Source of the DNA: a virus
IMG/VR virus record: IMGVR_UViG_3300021140_000043
Location: 1 to 22,447 of that record
Length of the DNA stretch: 22,447 bases
Reading direction: 5' to 3' (one strand)
Below the pieces are notes generated by a model. That model was given only the letters and a program-made list of their open reading frames with translations. It did no database searches and had not been told where the DNA came from. Shown in pieces: positions 1,360 through 18,148 of the stretch. How positions within the stretch are numbered: position 1 is the first letter of the stretch; each line of letters begins with the position of its first letter. A program made the position numbers and the translations under genes.

Positions 1360-1373
1360 GGTTTCCTGTCGGT

Positions 1374-1383
1374 TGTATAAGCG
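1374..1383. repeat. direct repeat TGTATAAGCG, copy 1
   Basis: This exact 10-base copy pairs with 1420-1429. The two copies bracket the CGGGGC...GCCCCG hairpin at 1394-1418. They could be protein-binding half-sites or part of the RNA leader structure. Confidence 0.5.
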
Positions 1384-1419
1384 TTTACTGGAACGGGGCT
1401 ACGCTTTGGCTCGCCCCGA

Positions 1420-1429
1420 TGTATAAGCG
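1420..1429. repeat. direct repeat TGTATAAGCG, copy 2
   Basis: This is the second exact copy of the 10-mer at 1374-1383, in the same orientation, on the other side of the hairpin. Confidence 0.5.
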
Positions 1430-1441
1430 ATACTTGTCTAG

Positions 1442-1464
1442 AACCGCCTTTAGGGCGGTTTTCT
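1442..1464 (+). terminator. terminator-like hairpin, rightward
   Basis: A 7-bp stem AACCGCC/GGCGGTT with loop TTTAG is followed by TTCTGG on the plus strand. The T-run is short (TTTT counting stem bases), so termination would be moderate at best. It may insulate the terminase transcript from rightward readthrough, or act as a leader hairpin of the leftward transcript. Confidence 0.4.
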
Positions 1465-1473
1465 GGCTTCCCC

Positions 1474-1498
1474 CCCTATAGTCCCCCCCATTCGTTAC
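1474..1498 (-). promoter_or_regulatory. T7-type promoter-like element, leftward
   Basis: On the minus strand GTAACGA (1498-1492) is followed by a run of G and then ACTATAGGG, with TATA at 1480-1477 and the predicted start G at 1476. The ACTATAGGG core equals the 3' part of the T7 promoter. It faces the two small leftward genes. The first T of TAACGA lies 21 bases before the start G, as in the copies at 6154 and 15776. Confidence 0.5.
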
Positions 1499-1499
1499 C

Positions 1500-1514
1500 T
1501 GAGAATGATTCTCA
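1500..1514. promoter_or_regulatory. Fur-box-like 7-1-7 palindrome
   Basis: TGAGAATGATTCTCA is a perfect 7-1-7 palindrome. It differs from the classical Fur 7-1-7 box (TGATAATNATTATCA) only at one symmetric position in each half. It sits one base upstream of the leftward GTAACGA element and between the divergent promoters. Whether host Fur or a phage repressor uses it is unknown. Confidence 0.45.
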
Positions 1515-1528
1515 CATATACAAGCCAT

Positions 1529-1548
1529 GCCAGCCCTGTCTGGCTGGC
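1529..1548. repeat. inverted repeat GCCAGCC-N6-GGCTGGC
   Basis: A perfect 7-bp stem with loop CTGTCT lies between the Fur-like palindrome and the rightward promoter-like element. There is no T-run on either side, so it is more likely an operator or RNA structure than a terminator. Confidence 0.4.
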
Positions 1549-1554
1549 TCCTAG

Positions 1555-1576
1555 GTAACAAAGTTGCCTATAGGGT
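1555..1576 (+). promoter_or_regulatory. T7-type promoter-like element ahead of small terminase
   Basis: GTAACAA is followed by TATAGGGT ending directly at the ATG (1577). The predicted start G is 1573, leaving a 4-base leader GGGT. The upstream half has one change (TAACAA) from the other copies. No usable Shine-Dalgarno site exists for the gene. Confidence 0.5.
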
Positions 1577-2002
1577 ATGAAGGAAGAATTGATTCTATCT
1601 GCACCCCAGCAGGCTTACCTAGACTGGCTCTGCACGCCCCCTATGGAACGCAATCCTGGTTCTAAGAACAAGATGGCTGTAGAGTTGGGCGTTGATGTTA
1701 AGACGCTTCGGCGTTGGGAAAAGAAACCTGTGTTTCGTGACCAGTGGCAGAACCGTGTGGATGATATCCAGGGTTCTCCTGAGCGTACCCAGGGTGTGTT
1801 AGATATGTTGTACACTAAGGCTATGGATGGTGATACGAAGTCTGCTCAGTTGTATCTTCAGGCTACGAATCGTATGGCTCCGCCTACGATTGAGGTTAAA
1901 TCCGACCGTAAGGCTCAGGAATTGTCTGATAGTGAGTTGGATGAGTTGATTGGTGCTTTGGCTGCTCGTGAGAAGGAAACACGGTCTTTGCGGGTTGTGT
2001 GA
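1577..2002 (+). CDS. terS: terminase small subunit
   Basis: This 141-aa protein is probably the DNA-recognition subunit of the packaging motor. An N-terminal helix-turn-helix-like part (about residues 12-60; KNKMAVELGVDVKTLRRWE) is followed by a helical oligomerisation-like region (about 70-100; LYTKAMDGDTKSAQLYLQAT) and a charged C-terminal tail. This order is typical of the phBC6A51-type small terminases that use HTH domains. The position directly upstream of the large subunit supports the call. It is first in the rightward operon, and its ATG follows the TATAGGGT element by zero bases, so the mRNA would be almost leaderless. Its TGA overlaps the next ATG (TGATG). Family similarity is by motif reading, not alignment. 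Confidence 0.8.
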   Translation: MKEELILSAPQQAYLDWLCTPPMERNPGSKNKMAVELGVDVKTLRRWEKKPVFRDQWQNRVDDIQGSPERTQGVLDMLYTKAMDGDTKSAQLYLQATNRMAPPTIEVKSDRKAQELSDSELDELIGALAAREKETRSLRVV

Positions 2003-2115
2003 TGGACTTGGTTGTTTGCGAGACTTGTGGAGAGGAATTTCCTGCTAATTGGGGTGGGTGTCCTTTTTGTGATTCTGGTGAGCGTCCTGTTTTGAAGATG
2101 AGAGATAACGACTAG
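2002..2115 (+). CDS. 37-aa zinc-ribbon-like protein
   Basis: This short frame between the two terminase genes encodes MDLVVCETCGEEFPANWG followed by GCPFCDSGERPV and a charged tail. Two C-x2-C pairs (Cys6/Cys9 and Cys20/Cys23) make a rubredoxin-like zinc knuckle very likely. The start ATG shares its A with the TGA of the small terminase, so it is probably translated by coupling. The stop is 9 bases before the large terminase ATG. The function is unknown; such minimal zinc ribbons may bind nucleic acid or dock to terminase subunits. Its length falls below common gene-calling cut-offs, so it is easily missed. Confidence 0.7.
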   Translation: MDLVVCETCGEEFPANWGGCPFCDSGERPVLKMRDND

Positions 2116-2124
2116 TTTTTTGTT
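2105..2124 (+). promoter_or_regulatory. partial promoter-like element ahead of large terminase
   Basis: ATAACGA lies 19-20 bases ahead of the terminase ATG, matching the spacing at 1555, 3696, 8596 and 18128. The TATAG core is missing (CTAG then a T-run). There is no Shine-Dalgarno site. It may be a decayed copy or chance, because TAACGA also occurs inside coding regions. Confidence 0.2.
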
Positions 2125-3699
2125 ATGGAATTAAATGAACTCCTAAATGAGAGGGAGTGGCGTCTTTGTCGTGGTCCTGACGATGCTTCTCCTAGCGACC
2201 TTGCTGATGCGTTTGAACATTTTTGTTCTACGTATTGGTTCATTAGGCATCCTGAGCGTGGACGTATCCTGTTTGAGATGCGTGAGGCACAGGTTGAGAC
2301 TGTGTATGCTTGGATTTCTAATCGTAACAGTATCGTTTTGAAGGCCCGTCAGATTGGGTTTTCTACGTTGGCTGCGGCTTTTGCTTTTTGGGAGGTGTTC
2401 TTTTGGCCTGACCGTTTTGAGGTTATGTTGAGCCGTACCGAGCGTGAGGCGGCTAAGTTGTTACAAAAATCTAAGTATGGGTATAAGATGTTGCCTGACT
2501 GGATGCGTCAACGGGGTCCTGGTTTGGTGTCGGATAATCAGTTGAAGATGGTGTTTAGTAATGAATCTGCTCTTGAGTCTCTTCCTAGTGGTAATGACCC
2601 TGCTCGTGGTGAATCCGTTTATCGTGTCTTTATTGATGAGATGGCGTTTCTTCCGAACTCTGAGGAAGCCTGGGCGTCTATTGAACCGATTGCCGATGTG
2701 GGTGGTCGTATTGTATGTTTATCCACCGCTAAGGGTGAGGGGAATATATTTCATAGGCTTTGGGTTGGGTCACAGACTGGGACGAATGATTTCAAAGGTA
2801 TTTTCTTTCCTTGGTCGGCGGGTGACCGTGATGAGGAGTGGTACGAGGTAAAGAAGGCCCAACTGCCTGATTGGCAGTTAGCCCAGGAGTATCCTAGCGA
2901 CCCTGAGGAGGCTTTTGTACGGTCGGGGCGACCTGTATTCGATTTGGATGTTTTGCGTGCCCTAGAGGTTTCTGAGCCTGATAGGGGGCATTTGTTTTAT
3001 GGTGAGTGGATTGAGTTCCGTCGTGATGGTGGTCCGTTGTCTGTGTGGCAGGAACCTGAGTTGGGTACTGTTTATTGTGTCGGTGCCGACGTTGCTGAAG
3101 GTTTGGGTCATGGTGACTATAGTGTGGCTCATGTTATTAATGCTCATACAGGTGATGTGGTTGCTGTGTGGCATGGCCATATTGACCCTGACTTGTTTGG
3201 GTCTGATGTTTTGTTTGATTTGGGTGATTGGTATAATCATGCGTTGATTGGTGTTGAGTCTAACAACCATGGTTTAACCACGCTGAAGGCTTTGCAGCGT
3301 GTGGGTTATCGTAATATTTATCGTCAGCGTCGTTTGGCTCAGCGTTCTCCTCAGGCTACTGAGGTGTTGGGTTGGCGTACTTCGGCTGCTTCTAAGCCGT
3401 TGGCTATTGACGAGTTGGCTAAGGCGTTGCGTGATGCTGATTTGGGTTTGATGGATGCTAATACTGTTGCTGAGTTGCGAACGTTTGTTCGTGAAGAGAA
3501 CGGTAAGATGCATGGTTCTCCTCATGACGACCGTGTTATGGCGTTGGCTATTGCTAATCAGATGTTGAAACATGTGTGGCTTCCTGAGTATACTCCTGAT
3601 TTGGCTCCACCTAGGTACTCTTTTGATTGGTGGGCTACTCAAGTGACACGTGAAAAGCCTGAAAAGTTTATTATTGGGTCGTTTAATACTCGCAGGTAA
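2125..3699 (+). CDS. terL: terminase large subunit
   Basis: This is the packaging ATPase and nuclease, 524 aa, a normal length. The N-terminal ATPase shows an adapted Walker A, KARQIGFST (residues 73-81), and a Walker B, VFIDE (168-172), followed by a C-motif-like CLSTAKGEG. The C-terminal RNase H-like nuclease keeps the expected acidic residues: Asp322 in GADVAEG, Glu378 in GVESNNHG, and Asp468-Asp469 in SPHDDRVMALA. All catalytic positions are therefore present and the gene appears intact. The start ATG has no Shine-Dalgarno site and follows a T-rich stretch. Codons end strongly in T. It sits behind the small terminase and the zinc knuckle and ahead of small membrane genes and the portal, as in many podoviruses. 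Confidence 0.95.
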   Translation: MELNELLNEREWRLCRGPDDASPSDLADAFEHFCSTYWFIRHPERGRILFEMREAQVETVYAWISNRNSIVLKARQIGFSTLAAAFAFWEVFFWPDRFEVMLSRTEREAAKLLQKSKYGYKMLPDWMRQRGPGLVSDNQLKMVFSNESALESLPSGNDPARGESVYRVFIDEMAFLPNSEEAWASIEPIADVGGRIVCLSTAKGEGNIFHRLWVGSQTGTNDFKGIFFPWSAGDRDEEWYEVKKAQLPDWQLAQEYPSDPEEAFVRSGRPVFDLDVLRALEVSEPDRGHLFYGEWIEFRRDGGPLSVWQEPELGTVYCVGADVAEGLGHGDYSVAHVINAHTGDVVAVWHGHIDPDLFGSDVLFDLGDWYNHALIGVESNNHGLTTLKALQRVGYRNIYRQRRLAQRSPQATEVLGWRTSAASKPLAIDELAKALRDADLGLMDANTVAELRTFVREENGKMHGSPHDDRVMALAIANQMLKHVWLPEYTPDLAPPRYSFDWWATQVTREKPEKFIIGSFNTRR

Positions 3700-3716
3700 C
3701 GATTTATTCTACTAGT
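3696..3716 (+). promoter_or_regulatory. weak promoter-like element
   Basis: GTAACGA begins at the stop codon of the large terminase, and the ATG follows 20 bases after its first T, exactly as at 8596 and 18128. The core is degenerate (CTACTAG instead of TATAGRG). The downstream gene has no Shine-Dalgarno site. Confidence 0.3.
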
Positions 3717-3941
3717 ATGACTGTTTTTGTATGTGATAGATGTGATTCCCGTTGGGTAGGCGACCAATTGCCTCCTCGTGGGTCTATTTGTTTTAGATGC
3801 CACGTTAAAACCGTGGACATCGGTTTCCGTCATGGTAAGGAAAACTTCCATGGTGCTACTATTCGTGAGAAGCAGAACAAGATTGTGTCGGATGCCGCCG
3901 CTAAGGGTATCAAGGCTGAACCTATAACTAATTGGATGTAA
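3717..3941 (+). CDS. small zinc-ribbon phage protein, 74 aa
   Basis: The protein has an N-terminal zinc ribbon with two C-x2-C pairs (CDRC at 6-9 and CFRC at about 25-28), then VDIGFRHGKENFHGATIRE and a charged helix. I recall similar small proteins with a FRHGKE-F-HG-TIRE block in environmental and actinobacterial phages but know no function. The ATG is not preceded by a Shine-Dalgarno site. It follows the terminase stop by 17 bases, and the stop is one base before the next gene. It could be a nucleic-acid-binding or assembly accessory factor; this is inference. Confidence 0.75.
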   Translation: MTVFVCDRCDSRWVGDQLPPRGSICFRCHVKTVDIGFRHGKENFHGATIREKQNKIVSDAAAKGIKAEPITNWM

Positions 3942-3942
3942 C

Positions 3943-4140
3943 ATGTCTTGGTGGGTTCCTATTGTCGTTGCTATTATTACTGGACCTATGGTTGTTATTT
4001 TACAGTTACTCCGTAGAGAAAACAGTAGCCAGCATGCCGAAGGTAGGGAACTTCTTAATCGGGTTTTATATAAAGTCGATGATGTCGGAACAAAAATTGA
4101 CAACCATATCGGTTGGCACGAAGGGAAGGAACAGAAATGA
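3943..4140 (+). CDS. one-pass membrane protein, possible lysis accessory
   Basis: This 65-aa protein opens with a hydrophobic helix (WWVPIVVAIITGPMVVILQL, about residues 3-22), then Arg-Arg, then a soluble helix LLNRVLYKVDDVGTKIDNHI with heptad-like spacing, and ends GWHEGKEQK. This single-TM plus coiled-coil design fits small phage membrane proteins encoded beside holins (DUF2746-like proteins of actinophages are a comparison from memory). It could be an accessory holin or a spanin-like protein. A larger overlapping frame starting at 3932 is less likely because its hydrophobic run is a shadow. The stop overlaps the next ATG (ATGA), so the pair is probably co-translated. Confidence 0.65.
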   Translation: MSWWVPIVVAIITGPMVVILQLLRRENSSQHAEGRELLNRVLYKVDDVGTKIDNHIGWHEGKEQK

Positions 4141-4337
4141 ATTCTATTTTAACTAAAACACAGCAGGCGGCACTTCACTCGTATTTGCGTTCTGTGCTTG
4201 CAACCACTATCGCTGCTGTTATGGCTGGGGCTAAAGACTGGTCCAGCATTGGGGCTGCTTTTATTGCAGCCGCATTGCCACCTATCATGCGCTATTTGAA
4301 TCCTAACGATTCAGGGTTTGGTGTAGGGTCTAAGTAA
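4137..4337 (+). CDS. putative holin, 66 aa
   Basis: From the ATG at 4137 (GGGAAGGAAC site upstream; ATGA overlap with the previous stop) the protein is 66 aa. It has a short polar N-terminus, a hydrophobic segment SVLATTIAAVMAG (about 17-29), a second one SSIGAAFIAAALPPIM (about 34-49), and a tail YLNPNDSGFGVGSK. The LPP-x-M-R-x-LNPND ending is a pattern I associate with small actinophage holins. It would form membrane lesions to release endolysin, but no endolysin lies nearby. A longer frame from 4113 adds eight charged residues and is less likely. Its TAA overlaps the portal ATG (TAATG). Confidence 0.65.
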   Translation: MNSILTKTQQAALHSYLRSVLATTIAAVMAGAKDWSSIGAAFIAAALPPIMRYLNPNDSGFGVGSK

Positions 4338-6157
4338 TGGCTCGTCCAGCGAATCGTGACGTTCTAGCGTCTTACCGTAAAAAGATTGACCATTCCCGTA
4401 AATGGCGTAAGGAAGAGAAGTACGACAAACTTTGGCGTCGTATGATTGACCTCTACAAGGGTAAGCATTACCTTCAGGTTTCTGAAGAGGACAGAATGCT
4501 TGTAAACGTCTGTTTTGCTACTATCAACGTTATTGGGCCTAGTGTGGCTGTTAACCATCCTAAGATTACGGTGGGTGCACGCAAGGCTGAAGATGGCGAT
4601 AAAGCCATCATCACGGAAGCCATTATTAACTATTGGTGGCGTCATTATGATTGCCAGAAGCAGATGCGCCGTGCTGTTGATGACTATCTGATTCTTGGTC
4701 ATGGCTGGCTTAAAACTGGTTATCGTTTTATTGAGGAAGAAAAACTGAGCAAAGCAGCACCTGATGATGAAGGCGAATACACAGACCCTACTCAGGGTAT
4801 GTCTTTGGAGAGCCAGTTGGTTGTTGTTGAGGACCGTCCTTTTGTTGAGCGTGTCTCACCGTTTGATGTTTTTATAGACCCTGATGCTACCAGCATTGAT
4901 GATGCCAAGTGGATTGCACAGCGTGTGCGTCGCCCTATGGTTGACGTCAAGAATGACCCTAAGTATAACCGTCGTGCCCGTGAGGATTGCCAGGCTTCGC
5001 ATTACAGCAAATGGTCTGAAGATGATGGTAAGGCTAGAATGTCTCGTAAAGAGGAAGATGGCTATGTTGACGTGTGGGAATTTTATGATATTCGCCGCCA
5101 AATCATGGCTGTCTTCTGTGATGGTGGGGATAACTTCTTGATTAATCCACATAAGATGCCATATGCTTTTGGGCATCCTTTTGTTATGCTACGCAACTAT
5201 GATGTTCCCGAGCATTTCTACCCCATGGGTGAACTAGAGGCCATTGAACCTTTGCAGTATGAATTGAACGAGACACGCACACAGATGATGAACCATCGTA
5301 AGCGTTTCGCACGCAAGTGGTTGTATAAGGAATCAGCGTTCGACCAGGATGGTCGTGCAGCGTTAGAGTCTGATGAGGATAACGTTATGGTGCCTGTTGT
5401 TTCGGATGAACCTATTGGTGGTGTTGTTTCTTCAATGCCTGCAATTGTTAACCCACCTGAACTGTACACCATTTCGGGTACTATCACACAAGACATTGAC
5501 CGTATCAGTGGTGTTGCTGAGTTTATGCGTGGCGGCTCATCAGAGATTAGCCGTACTGCTACAGAGTCGGCTATGATGCAGGACGCCATGAATGCTCGTA
5601 CTTCAGACAAACTGGCTGAAGTTGAGCGTGCTATCGCATCAGCGGCTAAACGTCTTGTCGGGCTTGCACAGCAGTATATGACTGGCGAGCAGGTTGCTCG
5701 TGTTGTTGGTTCAGGTGCTATGCCTATTTGGGTTAACTTTGACCGTGACTATATTCAGGGGGAGTTTGATTTTGAAGTTGAGGCTGGCTCTACGCAACCT
5801 GTCAATGAATCTTTCCGTCGTCAGATGGCACTACAAATGGTTGATGCTATGGCGCCGTTTGTTGGCGCAGGTGTTGTGGATATGGCGGCGTTAGCCCGTC
5901 ATGTATTGCAATTCGGTTTTGGTGTTAAAACACCTGAAGCATTCTTGGCTCAACCTGCACCTCAGGGACCTGTAGGTCCTGATGGTCAACCCATGCAAGG
6001 CCCACCTCCTGGTGGTCCTGAAATGGGTGGCGCACCGATGCCAGGCATGGAAGAGGCACCACCTGCTGGTGGTATGCCGATGCCAAGTTCTATTCCACCA
6101 CAGGTGTTGGCTGCTATTGCCAACCAAACTGGTGGTTTACCAAACACACAAATGTAA
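4337..6157 (+). CDS. portal protein
   Basis: This 606-aa protein is the dodecameric portal through which DNA is packaged and to which the tail attaches. The start, MARPANRDVLASYRKKIDHS, is followed by a typical podovirus portal body: DRMLVNVCFATINVIGPSVA, a YLILGHGWLKTGYRF block, a VSPFDVFIDPDATSIDDAKW block, a PHKMPYAFGHPFVMLRNY block, and a long helical segment with EISRTATESAMMQDAMN and VERAIASAAKRLVGLAQQYM. These match P22-like portal organisation. Residues from about 540 onward form a Pro/Gly/Met-rich low-complexity tail (PQGPVGPDGQPMQGPPPG), probably disordered and exposed inside the head. The stop TAA begins the GTAACGA element of the next transcription unit. Confidence 0.9.
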   Translation: MARPANRDVLASYRKKIDHSRKWRKEEKYDKLWRRMIDLYKGKHYLQVSEEDRMLVNVCFATINVIGPSVAVNHPKITVGARKAEDGDKAIITEAIINYWWRHYDCQKQMRRAVDDYLILGHGWLKTGYRFIEEEKLSKAAPDDEGEYTDPTQGMSLESQLVVVEDRPFVERVSPFDVFIDPDATSIDDAKWIAQRVRRPMVDVKNDPKYNRRAREDCQASHYSKWSEDDGKARMSRKEEDGYVDVWEFYDIRRQIMAVFCDGGDNFLINPHKMPYAFGHPFVMLRNYDVPEHFYPMGELEAIEPLQYELNETRTQMMNHRKRFARKWLYKESAFDQDGRAALESDEDNVMVPVVSDEPIGGVVSSMPAIVNPPELYTISGTITQDIDRISGVAEFMRGGSSEISRTATESAMMQDAMNARTSDKLAEVERAIASAAKRLVGLAQQYMTGEQVARVVGSGAMPIWVNFDRDYIQGEFDFEVEAGSTQPVNESFRRQMALQMVDAMAPFVGAGVVDMAALARHVLQFGFGVKTPEAFLAQPAPQGPVGPDGQPMQGPPPGGPEMGGAPMPGMEEAPPAGGMPMPSSIPPQVLAAIANQTGGLPNTQM

Positions 6158-6179
6158 CGAAACAACTACTACTATAGAG
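6154..6179 (+). promoter_or_regulatory. T7-type promoter-like element ahead of scaffold and capsid
   Basis: GTAACGA at the portal stop is followed by ACTATAGAG, with the predicted start G at 6177. The leader of about 28 bases contains a good Shine-Dalgarno site (TGGAG) before the scaffold ATG. Together with the copy at 15776 it has the fullest core, ACTATAGAG. Strong transcription would suit scaffold and capsid. Confidence 0.5.
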
Positions 6180-6204
6180 CAACCATTTTGGACTCTGGAG
6201 AATT

Positions 6205-6984
6205 ATGGATACTGAAAATTTTGATGCTGAAGCATTTGACCCCATCGCTGATGGACAAGTTGAAAGCGGAGGTGATGTTTCTTTTGATGAAGCACCGATT
6301 GATTATTTCAATGTTGACGAATACGCTGACAAATATGTCAAGGTAGTCGTTGATGGCGAAGAACTTGAAGTGCCACTTAAAGAAGCGGTTTCTGGATATC
6401 AACGTCAAGCGGATTATACCCGCAAGACACAACAACTGGCTGATGAGCGTCGTGGCGTTCAGTTTGCATCGGCAATCCAACAAGCGTTGGACAATGACCC
6501 AAATGCAACTATTGAACTATTGAAGTCTCATTATGGTTTGGACCAACAGGATTCCTTTGAAGAGGATGATTTGTGGGCAGACCCGATGGAAAAGCAATAT
6601 CGTCAACTTGAGAATCGTCTGAAGTCCTTTGAGGAACAACAGGCTATGAACGAGTTGGAACGTAATATTGGTTCTCTTCAGCAAAAATACGGTGAAGATT
6701 TTGACGCTAATGAAGTAGTTTCATTGGCACTAGCAAGGGGAACAACCGATTTAGAATCGGTTTACAAGCAAGTGGCATTTGATAGACTTTATAGTGGAGA
6801 ACAGGCTCGTCGTCAGGCACAGGCACAGCGTGCACAGCAGGAACAACAAATTGTTCAGGCTAAGCGTTCTAGTGGTATTGTGGCTGGTGGTTCGTCTGCT
6901 CAAGGTACATCCGTAGATTCACAACCAATCACTAATTTACGGGATGCTTTTGCTGCTGCTAAACAGCAGTTGGGTATTTCATAA
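6205..6984 (+). CDS. scaffolding protein
   Basis: This 259-aa strongly acidic protein has an N-terminal run of Asp/Glu, a small beta motif YVKVVVDGEELEVPLKEA (about residues 47-64), then YQRQADYTRKTQQLADER and long helical stretches (LENRLKSFEEQQAMNELER), ending in a Gln/Ala-rich tail. The V-D-G-E-E...L-x-x-x-Y-Q-R-x-A-D-Y-T-R-K-T-Q pattern is common in scaffold proteins encoded between portal and capsid genes. It would guide procapsid assembly and then leave. GGAG precedes the ATG, and the gene heads the scaffold-capsid unit behind the promoter-like element at 6154. No protease domain is visible. Confidence 0.8.
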   Translation: MDTENFDAEAFDPIADGQVESGGDVSFDEAPIDYFNVDEYADKYVKVVVDGEELEVPLKEAVSGYQRQADYTRKTQQLADERRGVQFASAIQQALDNDPNATIELLKSHYGLDQQDSFEEDDLWADPMEKQYRQLENRLKSFEEQQAMNELERNIGSLQQKYGEDFDANEVVSLALARGTTDLESVYKQVAFDRLYSGEQARRQAQAQRAQQEQQIVQAKRSSGIVAGGSSAQGTSVDSQPITNLRDAFAAAKQQLGIS

Positions 6985-7005
6985 TATTTCCTAGGAGGAA
7001 TTCAA

Positions 7006-7944
7006 ATGTCGAACCCGAACTTTGACGCACTACTCTCAACTACACTTGCGAACTATCGTGACAAGTTGACCGACAACGTGTTTACCGCACGTCCACTTAC
7101 ATACTGGCTTAGTGACAAGAGTCGTATCCAAACCGAATCTGGTGGTACGAAAATTGTTGAGCAGTTGATTTATGGTCAGAACAGCACTGTTGCTTCGTAC
7201 TCAGGTTACGAAACACTCAGCCTTACACCACAAGATGGTATTTCGGCTGCTGAATACGACTGGAAGCAATATGGTGCTTCAATCGCTATCAGCGGTATTG
7301 AAGAGGCTAAGAACAATGGCGAGCATGCTATTATTAACTTGCTTGAGGCTAAGATTATGCAGGCTGAAGAGTCATTGCGTGAAGGCTTTAACCAAATGTT
7401 CTTTGCTGATGGCACAGGCAACTCTGGTAAGAACTGGAACGGTCTTGGTAACCTTGTTGAGTCAGGTAACACCGTTGGTGGTATTAACTCGGCTACAGCA
7501 GGTAACGAATACTGGCGTTCATATGAGGAAAACACCGCTGGTGCTTTGACTCTTCTTCAGATGGCGACTGCTTATAACAGCGTGTCTGTTGGTAACGACC
7601 ATCCTGACGTTATCCTTACAACTCAAACATTGTTTGAAAAGTATGAATCACTTCTGCAACCACAGTTGCGTTACACTGATACAAAGACAGCAGATGCTGG
7701 TTTCCAGAACCTTCTGTTCAAGTCTGCGCCTATCATGTACGACGTTCACTGTACAGCAGGTGTTATGTACTTCTTGAACTCTAAGTACATCAAACTTGTT
7801 GGTCACTCTGACAAGTGGTTTGCACAGACCGATTTCGTTCGCCCTGAGAACCAGGACGCACGTTTCGCTCTTATCATGTGCTACGGTAACCTTGTTGTTT
7901 CTAACCGTAAGAAGCAAGGTAAGTTGACCGCAAAGACTGCCTAG
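7006..7944 (+). CDS. major capsid protein, HK97-like
   Basis: This 312-aa protein begins MSNPNFDALLSTTLANYRDK and contains GGTKIVEQLIYGQNSTV, YETLSLTPQDGISAAEYDWK, an ISGIEEAKNNGE segment, EAKIMQAEESLREGFNQMFF and a NPDVILTT-like block (HPDVILTTQTLFEKYE). I associate this pattern with HK97-fold capsid proteins of podoviruses and some siphoviruses. The strongest ribosome site in the window (AGGAGG, 7 bases before ATG) and codons with many C-ending AAC, GAC, TAC and ATC point to very high expression. A GC-rich hairpin 21 bases after the stop may shape the mRNA end. Position behind the scaffold and abundance signals make the call firm. Confidence 0.9.
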   Translation: MSNPNFDALLSTTLANYRDKLTDNVFTARPLTYWLSDKSRIQTESGGTKIVEQLIYGQNSTVASYSGYETLSLTPQDGISAAEYDWKQYGASIAISGIEEAKNNGEHAIINLLEAKIMQAEESLREGFNQMFFADGTGNSGKNWNGLGNLVESGNTVGGINSATAGNEYWRSYEENTAGALTLLQMATAYNSVSVGNDHPDVILTTQTLFEKYESLLQPQLRYTDTKTADAGFQNLLFKSAPIMYDVHCTAGVMYFLNSKYIKLVGHSDKWFAQTDFVRPENQDARFALIMCYGNLVVSNRKKQGKLTAKTA

Positions 7945-7964
7945 TCAGTTTTGTCAATTGATTT

Positions 7965-7982
7965 GGGGGGCTTTGGCCCCCC
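7965..7982 (+). terminator. GC-rich hairpin after the capsid gene
   Basis: GGGGGGC / GCCCCCC form a perfect 7-bp stem with loop TTTG just behind the capsid stop. The sequence after it (ATCTCTACC) has only a weak T-run, so it may be a partial terminator or an mRNA-stabilising 3' end, as often found behind capsid genes. Confidence 0.55.
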
Positions 7983-8011
7983 ATCTCTACCCACCACATT
8001 AAGGAGTAATG

Positions 8012-8599
8012 ATGCCATACGCAAAAAAAAGCAAGACCGTAAATGGTCCCGATAACAACAAGGCTTACATGCCAGTTCCTAAGGGTTACAAGGGAAACTG
8101 GAATGTTCCTAAAGGTACACCTTGGAAAAAGGATTCGCCTTATAACCCAGCAAATAAAGGCAAAGGTCCAACATCTCGTGGTCCTTCACCCGAATCAGTA
8201 GCAAAAGCAAAAGCGTCTGCAACACCCCGTGTTGTATCGCCTGCACCTTCACCCAAAGCGGTGGCTGGCCGTAAGGCTGCTGTTGCAAAACGTGCTAATG
8301 CTGTTTCGGCTTCTAAAGAAGCAGGAATGATTCGTTCCAGCAAAGAAGCGGCTGCAACTAAAAAAGCACAGGCTAAGCAGGTAACGTCTCGTGGGCCAAG
8401 TCCTCGTAGTGTTGCTGCTGCAAAGAAAAAGGCTTCTGCTGTTACGCCGATTGCTTCACCACGTGGCAAGGCTGCTAACCAGGCTGCTCGTCGTGCTGCT
8501 ATTACTGCTGCACAAAAGAAAGCATCTTCCAGCAAGAGGGCTTCTTCTGCACGGACTTCTGCTTCTGTGAAGCGTGGCGTTAAGGGAAAATTAAAGTAA
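8012..8599 (+). CDS. very basic histone H1-like protein, 195 aa
   Basis: After a Pro/Gly/Lys N-terminus (residues 1-53; YMPVPKGYKGNWNVPKGTP), the protein is almost wholly Ala, Lys, Ser, Arg, Pro and Val, with hardly any acidic residues. Two copies of a unit TSRGPSPxSVAxAK start at about residues 54 and 125, with a shorter SPAPSPKAVAGRK unit between, so it grew by internal duplication. Composition matches the tail of eukaryotic histone H1 and bacterial H1-like proteins. It should bind DNA or neutralise it inside the head, or be a basic internal virion protein. ATG 8012 is chosen over 8009 because AAGGAG at 8001-8006 is then 5 bases away rather than 2. It lies between capsid and tail adaptor genes. 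Confidence 0.75.
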   Translation: MPYAKKSKTVNGPDNNKAYMPVPKGYKGNWNVPKGTPWKKDSPYNPANKGKGPTSRGPSPESVAKAKASATPRVVSPAPSPKAVAGRKAAVAKRANAVSASKEAGMIRSSKEAAATKKAQAKQVTSRGPSPRSVAAAKKKASAVTPIASPRGKAANQAARRAAITAAQKKASSSKRASSARTSASVKRGVKGKLK

Positions 8600-8616
8600 C
8601 GAACCCCACATAGGGT
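8596..8616 (+). promoter_or_regulatory. T7-type promoter-like element, 4-base leader
   Basis: GTAACGA overlaps the stop of the H1-like gene; ACATAGGGT runs into the ATG at 8617. The predicted start G is 8613. One change (CATAG for TATAG) from the other copies. No Shine-Dalgarno site is present. Confidence 0.45.
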
Positions 8617-8841
8617 ATGAGTAAACAACTTGCCCACACCCTATATGGAGAACCTGTAAGTGGTTCCCGACCTGCCGTTTCGGCAGTCGGGAGCAAACTT
8701 GCGCCTGGAAGCGGACCGTATATCGGCCGTAACCGTTGTATCGCCAATAACGATACTTGTGAAGGACCCAAAGCCAAACAAACCGACTACTGTATCGGTC
8801 ATTTGCGTACTATGGCTAAGGAACAGAAGGAGAACGAATGA
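8617..8841 (+). CDS. small Cys/His protein, possible zinc finger, 74 aa
   Basis: The protein has a flexible N-terminus (SKQLAHTLYGEPVSGSRP) and a C-terminal motif CIANNDTCEGPKAKQTDYC-IGH, with spacing C-x6-C-x10-C-x3-H that would suit one zinc ion. I recall similar C-x-A-x(2-3)-D-T-C-x-G...C-x-G-H-L-R endings in phage and bacterial small proteins but no proven role. It starts directly behind the promoter-like element without a Shine-Dalgarno site and overlaps the tail adaptor gene by ATGA. A strong 11-bp hairpin lies inside its coding sequence (8666-8691). A head-completion or accessory role is possible from position only. Confidence 0.7.
   Translation: MSKQLAHTLYGEPVSGSRPAVSAVGSKLAPGSGPYIGRNRCIANNDTCEGPKAKQTDYCIGHLRTMAKEQKENE
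8666..8691 (+). other. strong intragenic hairpin
   Basis: CCCGA-C-CTGCCG, loop TTT, CGGCAG-TCGGG forms 11 base pairs with one bulged C, within the first third of the 74-aa gene. No T-run follows, so it is not a standard terminator. It could slow ribosomes, protect mRNA or be a processing site. Confidence 0.5.
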
Positions 8842-11904: not shown

Positions 11905-12287
11905 TGCCTATAGAAACCCCAAGAGATAAACCAGAGTTGCAGATTTGGACTGCACCTTTAATGGAAGCACTCCGTTCATCGGATGCTTCCACTCTTCAGC
12001 ATATCTTCACTTCACTTAAGGAGTATCTGCGTGGTGTTCAAACAACCATCAGTTCAAACTACTACAACCTAAATATTGGTTCTGTATCGGTGGGTACAGC
12101 AGCCGCTAGTATCACTGGCACGTTTCCGAATCAAAACTTAAATCTTGTTTTACAAACTGGACCTGCTGGGCCGACTGGCCCTACAGGCCCGCAAGGTATC
12201 CCTGGGTATTCTATTTTAAACATTGACGGTGGAGCACCTGATTCTATTTATGGTGGTATACCTGTTATTGATTGTGGGAGTATCTAA
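11904..12287 (+). CDS. short fibre protein with collagen-like end
   Basis: This 127-aa protein has an N-terminal non-repetitive part ([20 protein letters not shown]; a helix then a beta-rich stretch, residues 1-80). A short Gly-x-y run [19 protein letters not shown] (about 86-104) and a compact end ([20 protein letters not shown]) follow. It is probably a connector that anchors the long collagen-like fibre encoded next, or a subunit that trimerises with it. It is coupled by TAATG at both ends. I know no exact family; the role is inferred from composition and from lying between two fibre genes. Confidence 0.65.
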
Positions 12288-13546
12288 TGGCTATTATTGT
12301 TCAATACCGTCGTGGCACAGCCGCACAATGGACCAGCACTAATCCTGTATTAGCGATTGGCGAGCCTGGTTATGAAACTGATACAGGCAAGTTTAAGGTT
12401 GGTAACGGTACGCAAACGTGGAGTTTGCTTCCGTATTCTAGTGGCACTGTAGGTCCGACTGGTGCGACTGGTGCTACAGGCGCAACAGGCATTCAGGGTC
12501 CACAAGGTATTCAGGGCTTGACTGGTGCTACTGGTCCTGTAGGGGCTACTGGCCCTACTGGCCCTACTGGCCCTACTGGACCTATTGGTCTTACAGGAGC
12601 CACAGGAGCCACAGGAGCGACTGGACCGCAAGGTCCGCAGGGTGACACAGGGGATACTGGTCCTGTCGGCCCTACGGGGCCTACAGGCGCTACTGGAGCG
12701 ACTGGGGCGACTGGTCCCACGGGTCCAACAGGGGTGACTGGTGCTGGATATTTTGGTGTTACTTCTAACACATCAAACACTATTGGAGTTGGCTCAAAAA
12801 CTTTTACCATTTCATCTCCATCTCCAAACGCATACCAGTCTGGTCAACGAGCACGAGCAATAAATCCAACATCACCAACAAACTACATGGAAGGCGTTAT
12901 TACGGTATCGCTATCTACCTTAACCATGACTGTAGATACGGTTGGTGGTTCTGGGACTCATGGCATATGGAGTTTTTCTCTTGCTGGCAATGTTGGTCTT
13001 ACGGGTCCGACTGGTCCGACTGGTCCGACTGGTCCAACTGGACCTACTGGTCTTACTGGTGATACAGGTCCTACTGGTCCGACTGGTGCGACGGGTCCAA
13101 CAGGTGCTACTGGTGCTGATTCTACTGTTCCTGGCCCTACGGGTCCTGCTGGTGCTACGGGGGCTACGGGTCCTGCTGGACCCATCGGACCTACAGGCGC
13201 CACGGGCGCCACAGGCGCTACTGGTGCTACGGGTGGTTTTAACTCAACACAAATAATTAACGCACAGCACAATGCTACCTATTCTTTGGTGATTTCTGAC
13301 TTAGGAAAAATGATTACAACAAGCCATGGAACCGCTGTTACTATAACCGTTAATGCGTCTTTAGGTTTAGTGCCTGGACAGTCTATTGATTTTTTACAAT
13401 TGGGCAACGGACAGGTAACTATAAACCCTGGTACAGCCACGGTCCACGGAACTCCAGGACTTAAGTTAAGGGCAAAACATTCTTCGGCATCACTGTTTTG
13501 TACAGCAACAGACGAGTATGTTTTGATTGGCGATTTGAGCGCATAA
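12287..13546 (+). CDS. collagen-like tail fibre with Mtd-type N-terminus
   Basis: Starting at the TAATG junction (12287; an ATG at 12272 adds five unlikely residues), the product is 419 aa. Residues 1-48 ([20 protein letters not shown], then [21 protein letters not shown]) match the virion-attachment domain seen at the N-terminus of the major tropism determinant (Mtd) and many fibres. Two collagen-like blocks follow (about 55-153 and 237-317), mostly GPT and GAT triplets, separated by an 80-residue beta-rich domain. The C-terminal domain (about 318-419; [15 protein letters not shown] ... [13 protein letters not shown] ... YVLIGDLSA) is a recurrent fibre tip. It should form a trimeric rod carrying a receptor-binding tip. 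Confidence 0.85.
12451..12745 (+). repeat. collagen-like Gly-x-Thr repeat block 1
   Basis: About 33 consecutive Gly-x-y triplets, mainly GPT and GAT. Tandem copies of CCTACTGGC and similar 9-mers occur around 12550-12580, so length change by slippage or recombination is likely. Confidence 0.8.
12994..13236 (+). repeat. collagen-like Gly-x-Thr repeat block 2
   Basis: About 27 Gly-x-y triplets, again GPT/GAT rich and including tandem GGTCCGACT repeats near 13005-13035. A short break ([10 protein letters not shown]) splits the block. Confidence 0.8.
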
Positions 13547-14688
13547 TGCCAATCCGTAGAGGAACGTTTGCTTCAAGCATGACTGGATTGCCTATTGCTA
13601 TAATCGGGGCTGTAACAAACTTCAATCAAGACAAGGCGACATTTAACGCTATCGTAAGTGCCGAGTATCAAAGTACCACAGTTAAGTTTCAATACAACAC
13701 AACAAACAACTTTGCTTCTTACACTGAAGTTACTGCTGCTAATTCTCCTGTAACCAGTCAATCTGTTGCTGCTTATTTTAACGCTACTGGTTTGTCTGTT
13801 GGGACTACCTACTATGTTCGTGCTGTTGTGAGCAACATTATTGGTACTGTTACTACTTCTTCTGTTTCGTTTACCACTTGGAGTCTTAAGACTTATTTAA
13901 ATACTACGGCTGGTTCATACACTGTAAGTGTTCCTTCTATCACACCAACTGGTGGTGTGGCAATAGCGCCAACTATTTATGAAATGCTTGTTTACGGTGG
14001 AGGAGGTTCAGCGGCTTATGGAGGCGGTGGAGGAGGCGGTTATCGTATATCAGGAAGCACACAATCCAATACGGGTGGAACGCAGTCAGTTACCATCCAA
14101 GTTGGTGCAGGTGGACCATACAACAGTTCTACCTCATTGCCTGCACCAGCAGGTCAAAATTCTATTGTAATTTTTGGTTCAACAACTTGGACTGCTGGTG
14201 GTGGTTTAGGTGGTGGATGGCTTACTAACGCCGCAGGTAGTGTAGGTACTGGAACAAACCCAGCACATGCTGGTGGGGTTGGTTACTACGGTTACACATA
14301 TATTTCTGGTTACAATCAATGGACAGACCCATCATGTGGATGTTGTGCAACTGATAAATTCGGCTTTTGTGAGACATACTGCACATGCAATAACCCCAAT
14401 AGCCCTATCTACTCAACTGATTACAGCCGCTACGCAGGTGGTGGCGGTGGAGGAACTGACTCTGCTGGAGGGACTGCTGGTTATCCAGACGTAGGTGGAA
14501 CTGGTGGAGCAGGAGGTGGCGCATACGGCTTGCGGGGTGGTAATGGCGGTGGCGGTGGAGGCACAAGCAGTGCTGGAGCCGCAGGTTCAGTACCAGCAGG
14601 TTCAGGTCCAATCGTAGGTACTGGTGGTACTGGTTGGTGGAATGGTGGCGTTGCTGGCGGTGTAACATTCAAATACTACGGACCATAA
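13546..14688 (+). CDS. glycine-rich receptor-binding-type fibre/adhesin
   Basis: From the TAATG start at 13546 (a frame from 13498 adds 16 residues inside the previous gene) the protein is 380 aa. Residues 1-125 include a fibronectin-III-like sandwich (TTVKFQYNTTNNFASYTEV ... LSVGTTYYVRAVVSN). Then come long Gly runs (YGGGGSAAYGGGGGGGYRI; from about 300 GGGGGGTDSAGG and GGNGGGGGGTSSAG). Glycine-rich sandwiches like this build adhesin tips of T-even-type fibres (S16 gp38 is a known example). A cluster of six Cys at about 264-283 (SCGCCATDKFGFC-ETYCTC) interrupts the Gly-rich part and might bind metal or form disulfides. It probably recognises the cell surface. Fold assignment is by composition only. 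Confidence 0.75.
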   Translation: MPIRRGTFASSMTGLPIAIIGAVTNFNQDKATFNAIVSAEYQSTTVKFQYNTTNNFASYTEVTAANSPVTSQSVAAYFNATGLSVGTTYYVRAVVSNIIGTVTTSSVSFTTWSLKTYLNTTAGSYTVSVPSITPTGGVAIAPTIYEMLVYGGGGSAAYGGGGGGGYRISGSTQSNTGGTQSVTIQVGAGGPYNSSTSLPAPAGQNSIVIFGSTTWTAGGGLGGGWLTNAAGSVGTGTNPAHAGGVGYYGYTYISGYNQWTDPSCGCCATDKFGFCETYCTCNNPNSPIYSTDYSRYAGGGGGGTDSAGGTAGYPDVGGTGGAGGGAYGLRGGNGGGGGGTSSAGAAGSVPAGSGPIVGTGGTGWWNGGVAGGVTFKYYGP

Positions 14689-14695
14689 GGAAATT

Positions 14696-15787
14696 ATGAT
14701 TACAGTAAAACCATTTAACTTGGAAGTTTTGTCAACACACAAAGGATTCTTTTTGCTTGACGAACTTCCCAAACACGCAACAGAAGTTGATGTGTGGGTA
14801 CAAACTCCAGCAGGTAATGAGTCTGTTGATTTTGTTGACATATTTAGTATGGCAGATGGCTCCTTGCTTGCTGCATGGAAACATCCATTTCAAAAGATAC
14901 AGAACCTTCAGGCTTTCTGTGACGGGGTAACACAGGTTTTAAGTTTATACATTGTTGAGAGGGTTTTTGATGTTTACGATAAATCACCAGATTCAGAGTA
15001 TGGAACATTTATTTTTTGCCCGTCTGTTCATGTGGAGGGTGCCGACTGGCGCTGCGACCAAAACATGTACGGACCTAGGTCGTTTAAAGGTGAAAAGGTT
15101 GCTCAAATAATAAACAGTTTAGATGAAATTGTTTATTATGAACCATTCTTAAATGTCTGCGGTGCTGGACATATTATATATATCGAAACAAGAACAAAGT
15201 CAGAACTTGCAAACGAAAAATTAAACAACAGCATAATCCCTGTTACGGGAAGAACATTTCAGGAATGTTTGCGTTTGGTTTATGAATGGTCTGTGCTTGC
15301 TGAAGAACCTTTCAACTCAAAAGATGATGCCGCCGTTGCGGCTTCAAAGTTTATTAAATCTTTGAAACTGACAGAACAGGAAATTGGGGAAATTAATAGT
15401 CTTCCACAGATGCAGGTATCTAAGTTTATTTTGGGTTCTGAAACTGCAAGACTGCGGGATATGGAAATACCTGAATTGTCTGAAGGGATTGTGAATATTC
15501 TTTTCAAGCGTATTGCGGCAAGCACGTTGTCTTTTATCGTTTCCCGAAATCCTAGTATTTGGGATTTTGATGAAATCAAAAATCAGGAGATACTTCAGAT
15601 GGAAATGGGCATTCAAAGGTTTAGGGAATACTATAAACTGCCAGAAGACATGGATATCGAGGATGGGAATAAGGTTTTGGACCATGCTTTTATTTATTTC
15701 GAAAAACAGCATTCCTATGTGTACACACAGTTAAGGAACTTTAGAAACAAGAAGAAAGTCCTTGATGGGCTGGAGGTAACGAAATGA
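14696..15787 (+). CDS. unrecognised 363-aa protein inside the structural block
   Basis: AAGGAA lies just before the ATG. The protein looks soluble and well folded, with no Gly-rich, collagen or coiled-coil signature. The N-terminal half is beta-rich (LSTHKGFFLLDELPKHATEV; VDVWVQTPAGNESVDFVD). Cys-containing stretches follow (FIFCPSVHVEGADWRCDQN), and the C-terminal half is helical and charged (ASKFIKSLKLTEQEIGEIN; EIKNQEILQMEMGIQRFREY). I do not recognise a family. Codons favour A and T endings such as AAA, ACA, CCA and GAA, unlike the GGT/GCT/CGT-heavy neighbours, hinting at separate acquisition. The next promoter-like element begins inside its last codons (GTA ACG A), so transcription restarts behind it. 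It might be a fibre chaperone, a host-takeover factor or an accessory gene; none of these is supported by sequence. Confidence 0.7.
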   Translation: MITVKPFNLEVLSTHKGFFLLDELPKHATEVDVWVQTPAGNESVDFVDIFSMADGSLLAAWKHPFQKIQNLQAFCDGVTQVLSLYIVERVFDVYDKSPDSEYGTFIFCPSVHVEGADWRCDQNMYGPRSFKGEKVAQIINSLDEIVYYEPFLNVCGAGHIIYIETRTKSELANEKLNNSIIPVTGRTFQECLRLVYEWSVLAEEPFNSKDDAAVAASKFIKSLKLTEQEIGEINSLPQMQVSKFILGSETARLRDMEIPELSEGIVNILFKRIAASTLSFIVSRNPSIWDFDEIKNQEILQMEMGIQRFREYYKLPEDMDIEDGNKVLDHAFIYFEKQHSYVYTQLRNFRNKKKVLDGLEVTK

Positions 15788-15800
15788 CGTACTATAGAGG
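15776..15800 (+). promoter_or_regulatory. T7-type promoter-like element inside a gene end
   Basis: GTAACGA here is read as Val-Thr codons, not as a stop, so its conservation is not explained by stop-codon context. ACTATAGAGG follows with start G at 15797. The leader is 10 bases and begins with GAGG, which could serve as the ribosome site for ATG 15807. Confidence 0.5.
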
Positions 15801-15806
15801 ATTTGT

Positions 15807-16247
15807 ATGAGCAATATTGACTACACAGGATTTACACAGCGCCAAAGAGCCGCAGGGAGCCAGTATGGCTCCAAGACGGCTTCTAACGCCTATGCCCGTT
15901 TCTTGTCTCAACAGCGTGGTTCTAGGAAGAAGTTTGGGCTTCAACAGGATTATGAGAAGCAGGCACCGAAGGTGGTTGGCGGATACACACAGCGTGGTCT
16001 TGCTGGGCCTGGTGTTAAGTCGGGTATTTTTCAGAAGGGTATGAATGAGTTTGCTAGTCAGAATTTGAATGATATTAATGATGTTAATACTGAGATTGCT
16101 AGCGATATGGACCAGTTCAATTTGCTTGACCGTCAAAACAAGGCAGAGTATGAAGACCAACTGGCCGCTATTCAGGCCGAGAAGCAACAGCAGATTGCTA
16201 ATACAGCAGCAACTTTACAGGCTTTTAAGCCGTTCTTAGGAGGATAA
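15807..16247 (+). CDS. probable internal virion protein, 146 aa
   Basis: The protein is Gln/Ala/Lys/Arg-rich, with a flexible basic first half (TQRQRAAGSQYGSKTASNAY; QQRGSRKKFGLQQDYEKQ) and a helical second half (NEFASQNLNDINDVNTEIAS; QNKAEYEDQLAAIQAEKQQQ). It ends with TAATLQAFKPFLGG. No recognisable enzyme domain is present. Such helical Gln-rich proteins encoded after the tail genes are usually ejected or core proteins in podoviruses. It is first behind the promoter-like element at 15776, with GAGG 6 bases ahead of its ATG. AGGAGG for the next gene lies in its final codons. Confidence 0.6.
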   Translation: MSNIDYTGFTQRQRAAGSQYGSKTASNAYARFLSQQRGSRKKFGLQQDYEKQAPKVVGGYTQRGLAGPGVKSGIFQKGMNEFASQNLNDINDVNTEIASDMDQFNLLDRQNKAEYEDQLAAIQAEKQQQIANTAATLQAFKPFLGG

Positions 16248-16248
16248 C

Positions 16249-17109
16249 ATGGCCGTAGCAAAAGATGAGGGTCCAGCAACCAAGGGGCTGGTTGGTGTTA
16301 AAGATAAAAAATCTAAAACACCTAAGGGTGGTACTTCGTACACTGGTGCTTCGGGTCAGTATGCTTGGCGTAAGCCTGCACCTGTTGGTACTGCGATAAC
16401 GCCACAGCAACAAAACATAAAGTCTCCTGCTCAAATTGCTAGGGAAGCAGCCATCATTGCCAAAGATGGAGCATTGACTGGTGTCGGAGGTGGAGGTGGT
16501 GCTGGTGGTCCTAGTCCACTTGACCGCTATACACAGGCTATTCAGGGTATGCTTACTAGTGGTTCGTATCGTCAACCACAGGATGATTTGCTTGCTAAAC
16601 TTACCGAAATGTATGGTCAGGCACAGCCACAGATTAATACTGCTATGGATAGTTTGACTGGTTTTCTTCAGGGGCAGTCTAATCCTTATGCTGGTTTGCA
16701 GGCTCAAACAACGCAGGTTACGCCTCAGTTGTCTGAGTTGCTTCAGTCGCAAGGTGTTGACCAAACTCCTTTGCAACAGTTGGCTGCTGTAACGCAGGCA
16801 CAGAACACTGGTCAGTCTGATGCGTTTCAAAACCTGATTGGTTCTATGCAGAACATGTGGCAGGGTAACCAGGCTGGGCAGATTTCTGATGTGGCTGCAC
16901 AGAGGGCTGGTTTGCAAACGCAATTAGAGAATTCTAGATTGGGTGCTGGTACACAGTTGAACACTCAGGCTGCTGGTCAACAGCAGGATTTGATGAAGAT
17001 GTTGCTGGAGGCGTTGTCTAAAGGTGGACGACCTAACAAGGGTGGGTTGTTTGGTGAAAGCAACACGGCTGCAAGGCTACCAATCAAAGTTGGAAGAAAA
17101 GGTAAATAA
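16249..17109 (+). CDS. probable internal virion protein, 286 aa
   Basis: AGGAGG precedes the ATG. The N-terminus is basic and disordered-looking (KDEGPATKGLVGVKDKKSK), then a Gly stretch (GVGGGGGAGGPS at about residue 81). A long Gln/Leu/Ala-rich helical region follows (AKLTEMYGQAQPQINTAMD; LQAQTTQVTPQLSELLQSQ; QQQDLMKMLLEALSKGG), and the C-terminus is basic (ARLPIKVGRKGK). The repeated Gln-rich amphipathic helices resemble internal core or ejection proteins. It is coupled to the next gene by TAATG. The family is unknown; the location after the tail genes is the main evidence. Confidence 0.6.
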   Translation: MAVAKDEGPATKGLVGVKDKKSKTPKGGTSYTGASGQYAWRKPAPVGTAITPQQQNIKSPAQIAREAAIIAKDGALTGVGGGGGAGGPSPLDRYTQAIQGMLTSGSYRQPQDDLLAKLTEMYGQAQPQINTAMDSLTGFLQGQSNPYAGLQAQTTQVTPQLSELLQSQGVDQTPLQQLAAVTQAQNTGQSDAFQNLIGSMQNMWQGNQAGQISDVAAQRAGLQTQLENSRLGAGTQLNTQAAGQQQDLMKMLLEALSKGGRPNKGGLFGESNTAARLPIKVGRKGK

Positions 17110-18131
17110 TGGACCCAGTAGTTTTACAGTTGCTTATGCAAATGTCGCAAGCCAAAGGTGGAAACAGGAATCTGTCGGGAACGCTTAACAACATGGATAA
17201 TCCTTTGTTGTTGGCTTTGGCTGGTGTTTTGGACCCTATGAGCGGTCAGGGCGCTGGACAGTCTAGTGGTATTTATAATCAGTTTGCTAACGACCCTAAT
17301 ACTCCTGCTACTGTTCAGCAGGTTATGGATTGGGTTGACCAGGGTTTAAACAAGTACCAGATTGAGTCTATGGTGACTCAACTGCCTGATGCTGTTGTTA
17401 TGGATGGCGGATACACAAAGAAGCAACTTGTTTCTATGGCTAATGATATGACTAAACAGCGTTCTACTGGTGCAGACAAGAATGTATTCGAGAAGGCTGG
17501 TTACCGTAATCCTAATGATGTGTATGGTTTGATGGATGCCCCTTTGTCTGCTGATTCGCAGCAACGTTTGGTTGAGTTGCAAACAGAGTATGAGCCGATA
17601 GAAAATAAGATGGCTAACCAGGAATCTCGTTCACGTGTGGCGGCTAATAAGATGCGTGGTTTTGGTACTGAAGTTAAATCTACGCTGGCTGATGATTTAA
17701 AAAGAGAAGCAAATACTTTGACGACAGGCATGGCTAGTGTTGCTATGCGTAATTTAGCCAAGTATGTAGCATCTAATCCTTATTTGACTGTTGAGGATTT
17801 AAATGAGCAGGTTGATTCCATTGCTTCTACAACTTCTGCTCGTCCTGGCGAAGTTAAACAATTTAAAAAACGTGCTTTAAAATATGTTGATGCTCTTGCC
17901 AAAACAGCAACTCCTGCTTCTGAAGTTAAAAGTATGGACCGTGGCAAGTCTGTTGCCGATTGGGAGCAGTCCAAAATTGAAGAGTCTAAGATTAAGGCTG
18001 AGGCGTCTAATAATGCTCGTTTGCAGGAAGCCATTAGGCAGGCCAACTTGGACCAGGCTGCAAGGGCAGGGCGGACACCGTTTACAGACCAGGCTTCTCA
18101 GTTGATGAAATTCATTGCTGGGACGAAGTAA
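17109..18131 (+). CDS. probable internal virion protein, 340 aa
   Basis: The ATG shares its A with the previous stop. The N-terminus (MDPVVLQLLMQMSQAKGGNR) and a Gly/Leu segment LLLALAGVLDPMSGQGAG precede a long helical body (TPATVQQVMDWVDQGLNKYQ; QRLVELQTEYEPIENKMANQ; DLNEQVDSIASTTSARPGEV). The C-terminus is charged and coiled-coil-like (ADWEQSKIEESKIKAEASNN). No catalytic motif was identified. With the two genes before and the giant gene after, it looks like part of an ejected internal-protein set. The stop begins the GTAACGA element before the giant gene. Confidence 0.6.
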   Translation: MDPVVLQLLMQMSQAKGGNRNLSGTLNNMDNPLLLALAGVLDPMSGQGAGQSSGIYNQFANDPNTPATVQQVMDWVDQGLNKYQIESMVTQLPDAVVMDGGYTKKQLVSMANDMTKQRSTGADKNVFEKAGYRNPNDVYGLMDAPLSADSQQRLVELQTEYEPIENKMANQESRSRVAANKMRGFGTEVKSTLADDLKREANTLTTGMASVAMRNLAKYVASNPYLTVEDLNEQVDSIASTTSARPGEVKQFKKRALKYVDALAKTATPASEVKSMDRGKSVADWEQSKIEESKIKAEASNNARLQEAIRQANLDQAARAGRTPFTDQASQLMKFIAGTK

Positions 18132-18148
18132 CGATTTCCATATAGAGT
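18128..18148 (+). promoter_or_regulatory. T7-type promoter-like element ahead of the giant gene
   Basis: GTAACGA at the previous stop is followed by CATATAGAGT, which runs into the ATG (18149). The predicted start G is 18145, giving the 4-base leader GAGT and no Shine-Dalgarno site. Confidence 0.5.

Follow-up and report, generated by a model that had tools for sequence, protein, structure and literature searches.

A recurrent promoter-like box upstream of late genes in a group of uncultured, freshwater-type phages

RinA/ArpU-type proteins are phage late-transcription regulators with a helix-turn-helix (HTH) like that of sigma region 4. The start-associated sequence (SAS) of cluster K mycobacteriophages, GGGATAGGAGCCC, has an AGGAG ribosome-binding core and is located 3-7 bp before the start of non-structural genes (PMC3203893). 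Leaderless genes in Actinobacteria and others carry a TA signal, TANNNT, about 12 bp upstream (PMC3160421). The element described here, a box with the consensus GTNACRAA, recurs upstream of late genes in a 22,447-base stretch of virus DNA (IMG/VR record IMGVR_UViG_3300021140_000043, positions 1 to 22,447; hereafter the window). The window contains a podovirus-like late module of an uncultured, freshwater-type phage. It is a fragment, and the early region lies outside it.

The conserved box and its distance to gene starts

An earlier note on the window described a T7-promoter-like element of two parts, GTAACRA and a YATAGRG core, at the borders of transcription units. A scan with the pattern GTAACRAN{3,14}YATAGRG recovered the six sites named there (minus strand 1498-1474; plus strand 1555, 6154, 8596, 15776, and 18128) and no others in the window. 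In the comparison with shuffled sequence that the note had called for, none of 100 shuffles contained a match, against 6 in the window itself, where the reversed control pattern was absent. The gaps from the first T to the G agree with the note; the five plus-strand sites have 17, 22, 16, 20, and 16, and the minus-strand site has 21. The partial copies at 2105 and 3696 are also present, and TAACGA occurs within genes as well, for example the capsid gene, as the note had cautioned. The boxes are as follows.

1555 to 1562, plus strand: box GTAACAAA, 22 nt before the ATG of terS (1577)
2105 to 2112, plus strand: drifted box ATAACGAC, 20 nt before the ATG of terL (2125)
3696 to 3703, plus strand: box GTAACGAT, 21 nt before the ATG at 3717, without the T7-like core
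6154 to 6161, plus strand: box GTAACGAA, upstream of the gene in the scaffold position (6205)
8596 to 8603, plus strand: box GTAACGAA, 21 nt before the ATG at 8617
15776 to 15783, plus strand: box GTAACGAA, overlapping the last codons of the open reading frame (ORF) 14696-15787
18128 to 18135, plus strand: box GTAACGAT, 21 nt before the ATG of the giant virion-protein gene (18149)
1491 to 1498, minus strand: GTNACRAA box (GTAACGAA), leftward, with a probable start at A 1477 (minus strand), 21 nt past the box G

The distances to the ATG at the partial copies (20 and 21 nt) equal those at the full sites 1555, 8596, and 18128 (22, 21, and 21 nt). What stays constant is therefore the box and how far it lies from the start codon, not the core, and the copies at 2105 and 3696 look like members with a drifted core.

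A TerL search identified 80 related viral contigs at 71-100% identity, and seventeen whole or large records were examined. In the upstream regions of orthologous genes the conserved element is a single box, (A)nGTNACRAA, in which N is A, G, or T and an A stands two bases before GTNACRAA. Apart from a T at -1 and a weak TA-rich stretch, nothing recurs in the interval from box to start codon. In related contigs the distance from the box G to the start-codon A is 19-23 nt with a sharp mode at 21-22 (terS and the genes at 3717, 8617, and 18149), and the window shows the same range. Surroundings drift while the box stays at orthologous places in distinct relatives; it is kept in 30 distinct orthologous sequences for terS, 36 for gene 3717, 18 for gene 8617, 11 for gene 18149, and 24 for the scaffold gene. 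The T7-like core YATAGRG, by comparison, is kept at 13 of 105 short-distance and 11 of 37 long-distance orthologous sites, and CTATTAGT, GTATAAAGT, CATATAGT, and CTAGGGT are common alternatives directly before the ATG. The core is lost in most orthologues and the box is not, and the box is the defining part of the element. The two spacing classes in the note reflect the position of TATA, about -8 for one class and about -4 for the other.

Counts independent of homology agree with this position. Boxes at 19-23 nt number 36 against a mean of 2.0 for permuted patterns, a difference tempered by one of 200 permuted patterns, which reached 25 such sites. In 18 related records, 25 of 48 occurrences of GTAACGAA lie 10-70 nt upstream of a predicted gene start, while 60 permuted octamers had a mean of 0.7 such sites and a maximum of 4. 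The full short form was found in 11 contigs of the collection, and all 10 that were checked contain this phage group's structural genes. The reversed short form was found in no contig of the collection. The box is thus a repeat at a fixed short distance before the starts of selected gene families.

Two sites have a short leader.

6176 to 6197, plus strand: conserved leader AGAGCAACC...GGACTCT of the scaffold-position gene, beginning 22 nt after the box G
15796 to the ATG at 15807, plus strand: probable short leader AGAGGATTTGT

As read from the sequences of relatives, the distance from the box to the scaffold ATG varies from 45 to 54 nt, and that from the box to the AGAGCAACC...GGACTC leader is 20-25 nt. 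Counting the same distance from the box at 15776 leads to AGAGGATTTGT-ATG, a short leader that carries a GAGG. Both the short-distance and the long-distance groups would be explained by a single start about 21 nt past the box G. The scaffold leader is nearly invariant in relatives whose leaders otherwise diverge. A hairpin in this leader was considered and rejected, as the sequence is invariant and shows no covariation. An Rfam search at the sites returned no known RNA families.

Promoter reading and competing explanations

We consider it probable that the box marks a phage-specific class of promoter that starts leaderless or short-leader late mRNAs. The placement of the element at transcription-unit borders, proposed in the earlier note, is supported and is extended by the relatives. 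Genes with a box at 19-23 nt have a Shine-Dalgarno match of 3.38, compared with 3.34 for random sequence and 4.58 for other genes; the lack of a Shine-Dalgarno signal is as expected for leaderless mRNAs. An intrinsic terminator is located directly 5' of the box at the gene-8617 locus in three relatives (L045, L046, and L033), leaving 31 nt to the ATG, and in some relatives the terminator ends about 9 nt before the box. The terS gene adjoins the divergent region and has no rightward gene upstream of it, so a promoter is needed there.

In the proposed mechanism, RNA polymerase would start about 21-22 bp past the box G, at an A after the TA-rich stretch. At most sites this A would be that of the start codon, giving a leaderless mRNA, and at the scaffold gene and gene 15807 the same distance would give a short leader with its own ribosome-binding site. 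On this view TATAGRG would not be a T7 promoter but one common version of the TA-rich start region combined with the start-codon context. The predicted starts are the A of the ATG at 1577, 3717, 8617, and 18149, together with 6176 and 15796 on the plus strand and 1477 on the minus strand, each within about 2 nt. The enzyme would be host RNA polymerase redirected by a phage factor, a requirement that follows from the lack of a recognisable polymerase in the phage genome. Where transcription starts, what part the host enzyme plays, and which protein is the factor are inferred from sequence.

The best candidate factor would be a conserved phage protein with a sigma-70 region-4 HTH, known from relatives since the fragmentary window stops short of that region. 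A gene for this sigma-like DNA-binding protein was present in every relative that was searched for it and has a full early region; in G010 it is located at L095:13975-14817. The protein is stand-alone in four relatives (G011 and G014-G016) and otherwise fused to DUF1599. Its assignment is based on a Pfam match and alignment in the relatives examined, a profile match to sigma factors in the PDB (best E 3.7e-6), and PHROG matches to sigma factor or transcription regulator, plus a weak match to a late activator. Its predicted fold matches sigma region 4 with a probability of 1.00 but an E of about 0.1 or weaker, and the model confidence is moderate. We regard it as the leading candidate reader of the box. 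The full chain, in which a protein with only sigma region 4 reads GTNACRAA at about -21, host polymerase starts at start codons without -35 and -10 elements, and several late genes are leaderless, is put forward tentatively and is more doubtful than the promoter class itself.

Several observations weigh against the promoter reading. The weakest point is the candidate protein, which fits poorly because the box lies at -22 to -15 and not at the -35 distance usual for sigma region 4. TANNNT occurs near -12 at 6 of 109 sites and at -6 at 44 of 109, so a classical -10 is absent, and a TANNNT at -6 would place a sigma-dependent start inside the gene. The box is carried by only part of the late genes, and the predicted pairing in the scaffold leader shows no covariation.

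The earlier note had the element read by a phage single-subunit RNA polymerase, of T7 or N4 type, with GTAACGA...TATAGGG as a T7-type promoter of variable spacing. The six sites with a T7-like core favour this, and a TA-rich stretch adjoining the start fits the layout of such promoters. The search for the polymerase gene that the note had proposed found none in the relatives, including those of about 37-40 kb that appear complete. PF00940 had no match in 18 related records or in GenBank phage MW202803 (L255), although the same search matched T7 and two marine T7-like contigs. The only proteins longer than about 660 aa in G005, G010, G011, and G014 are giant ones of 2.7-3.0 thousand aa, and giants of this kind have no polymerase motifs and no family hits. 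The giant protein (2.2-3.1 thousand aa across relatives) was also considered as an N4-like virion polymerase and rejected, with no motif or conserved core and no polymerase match in Pfam, PHROG, or PDB. The core is lost in most orthologues, and the spacing from recognition to initiation is not fixed, varying by 6 bp (16, 16, 17, 20, 21, and 22 from first T to G). This reading is largely refuted and is very improbable. Between its terL and portal genes, MW202803 encodes a protein annotated 'DNA-directed RNA polymerase' (38887-39204), which at 105 aa is too short for a polymerase. Its gene lies where the window has small genes, including 3717-3941.

The box might instead be a signal at the RNA level, for translation or mRNA processing, on long late transcripts whose genes are translated from processed or Shine-Dalgarno-less mRNA. 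The tight distance to the start codon, the missing Shine-Dalgarno signals, and the enriched T at -1 would suit such a signal. We find it unlikely, since the scaffold gene keeps the distance from box to leader and not that from box to ATG, and both the terminators directly upstream of the box and the lack of a rightward gene before terS require transcription to start there. Ordinary host promoters, with the box and its neighbourhood as the -35 and -10 of a host sigma factor such as the sigma-B/F type (GTTT...GGGTAT), are an improbable alternative. Short-distance sites often read GTNACR-N12-GGGTAT, which we take to resemble group 3 sigma promoters, and leaderless genes are common in Actinobacteria (PMC3160421). 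Against this, GGGTAT arises simply from GG(G)T preceding the ATG, is missing at many short-distance sites and at long-distance sites, and as a -10 would put the start inside the gene; as a sigma-B/F -10 it is not general and was rejected. The sequence upstream of the box shows no conserved -35, and TANNNT is not a feature of the region near -12.

Chance, or the context of stop codons (TAA CGA after genes), has a negligible probability and is already refuted. Several boxes do overlap an upstream TAA. Zero matches are expected by chance. As the note had argued, stop-codon context alone is insufficient: the 15776 copy lies inside the terminal codons Val-Thr-Lys-stop of ORF 14696-15787, and one copy is on the minus strand (1498-1474). 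The terS site and this leftward site have no upstream stop on their strand. Orthologous boxes also occur in GTTAC and GTGAC forms, which alter the stop.

If the promoter reading is true, it offers a simple rule by which late promoters, and with them the exact starts of transcripts, can be located across a large group of uncultured phages, and it names a small phage protein as candidate reader of the box. Its layout, with a box at about -21 and a start at the ATG, would fit no sigma class known to us. The presence of ACTATAGGG-like words in a metagenomic phage need not mean that it has a T7-type polymerase.

Gene setting and neighbouring sequences

The genes of the late module are as follows.

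1577 (start), plus strand: terS (TerS)
2125 (start), plus strand: terL (TerL)
3717 to 3941, plus strand: 74-aa gene, zinc-ribbon-like protein
4337: portal, P22/SU10-like
6205, plus strand: gene in the scaffold position
7006: major capsid
8617 (ATG), plus strand: gene at 8617
8838: adaptor, SU10-type
12272: ORF with collagen-like repeats
14696 to 15787, plus strand: ORF, followed by a gene with its ATG at 15807
18149 to 22447, plus strand: giant virion-protein gene, continuing past the window end

The giant protein closes the structural module in the window and its relatives and is 2,261-3,124 aa in length. Its ends are conserved, its middle is hypervariable, and it has no family match. Five relatives (G005, G008, G010, G011, and G014) appear complete at 37-40 kb because their contig ends are identical and overlap by 86-127 bases. 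MW202803 is the nearest GenBank phage by TerL. No tRNA genes were present in the pieces scanned, and the divergent region had no BLAST match in GenBank phages. Host assignment by prophage search was dropped, as the best matches were only 29-36% identical and mostly from Bacillota. A transglycosylase-like (Rpf-type) domain in one relative hints at Actinobacteria as host.

Two further sequences are located in the divergent region.

1470 to 1489, minus strand: element GGGGGGGACTATAGGGGGGG, directly downstream of the leftward box, near-exact in relatives
1500 to 1514: perfect palindrome TGAGAATGATTCTCA between the divergent boxes, recurrent in relatives

The GGGGGGGACTATAGGGGGGG 20-mer is kept in most relatives that cover the region and is exact in many unrelated phages (L122-L238). 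Its 17-mer GGGGGGGACTATAGGGG is present in at least 120 viral contigs, compared with none for the reverse. The 20-mer lies upstream of terS in the window's group, 25-80 nt after the TerL match in marine T7-like phages, and near terminase, helicase, replication-initiation, or methylase genes in other phages. Phages that have a T7-type polymerase and phages that lack one both carry it, so it is no testimony for such a polymerase here. A cohesive-end site was considered, since the 20-mer adjoins terminase genes in two phage groups and contains the ends of two contigs, but was not adopted, given its position elsewhere near replication or methylase genes. A literature search for the 20-mer found no paper. 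The palindrome TGAGAATGATTCTCA is similar to operators of the Fur/Zur type with a 7-1-7 layout; alternatively, it may be a site for TerS.

The leftward leader (1359-1477, minus strand) contains two potential hairpins after a G-run, the second of which (CGGGGC...GCCCCG) shows compensatory changes in relatives. Neither has an Rfam match. MW202803 contains about 30 dispersed palindromes of the form GTTTC-N2-6-GGAAAC, in and between genes, two of them directly before CATATGGTATG / CATAGTGTATG starts. Turnover of the box to this form (GTTTC-N-GGAAAC) was not used as evidence, as the copies are dispersed and many are intragenic.

Comparison with known systems

Some copies of the element end in ACTATAGGG or TATAGAG, like the T7-type promoters of Autographiviridae. 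Unlike those, the element has no fixed spacing and no conserved core, and the phage's relatives have no recognisable gene for a single-subunit RNA polymerase. The earlier observation is thus confirmed and a promoter-like reading is supported, while a T7-type polymerase as reader is not.

As in RinA/ArpU-type systems, this phage group encodes a small sigma-region-4-like protein; here it lies in a different neighbourhood and is often fused to DUF1599. The short-distance genes resemble leaderless genes (PMC3160421) in that they have no Shine-Dalgarno signal and transcription probably starts at the start codon. They differ from the leaderless TA signal in that TANNNT is located at -6 and a specific box is present at about -22 to -15.

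Like the SAS (PMC3203893), the element is a short, asymmetric, many-copy repeat at a near-fixed short distance before the starts of a subset of genes, and it is conserved by gene family among relatives. The consensus at these sites is not the SAS sequence with its AGGAG core 3-7 bp before the start, and no Shine-Dalgarno signal above chance is present. Here GTNACRAA lies about 14 nt before the start, has no ribosome-binding core, and is associated mostly with structural genes. We read the element as a probable phage-specific, start-associated promoter.

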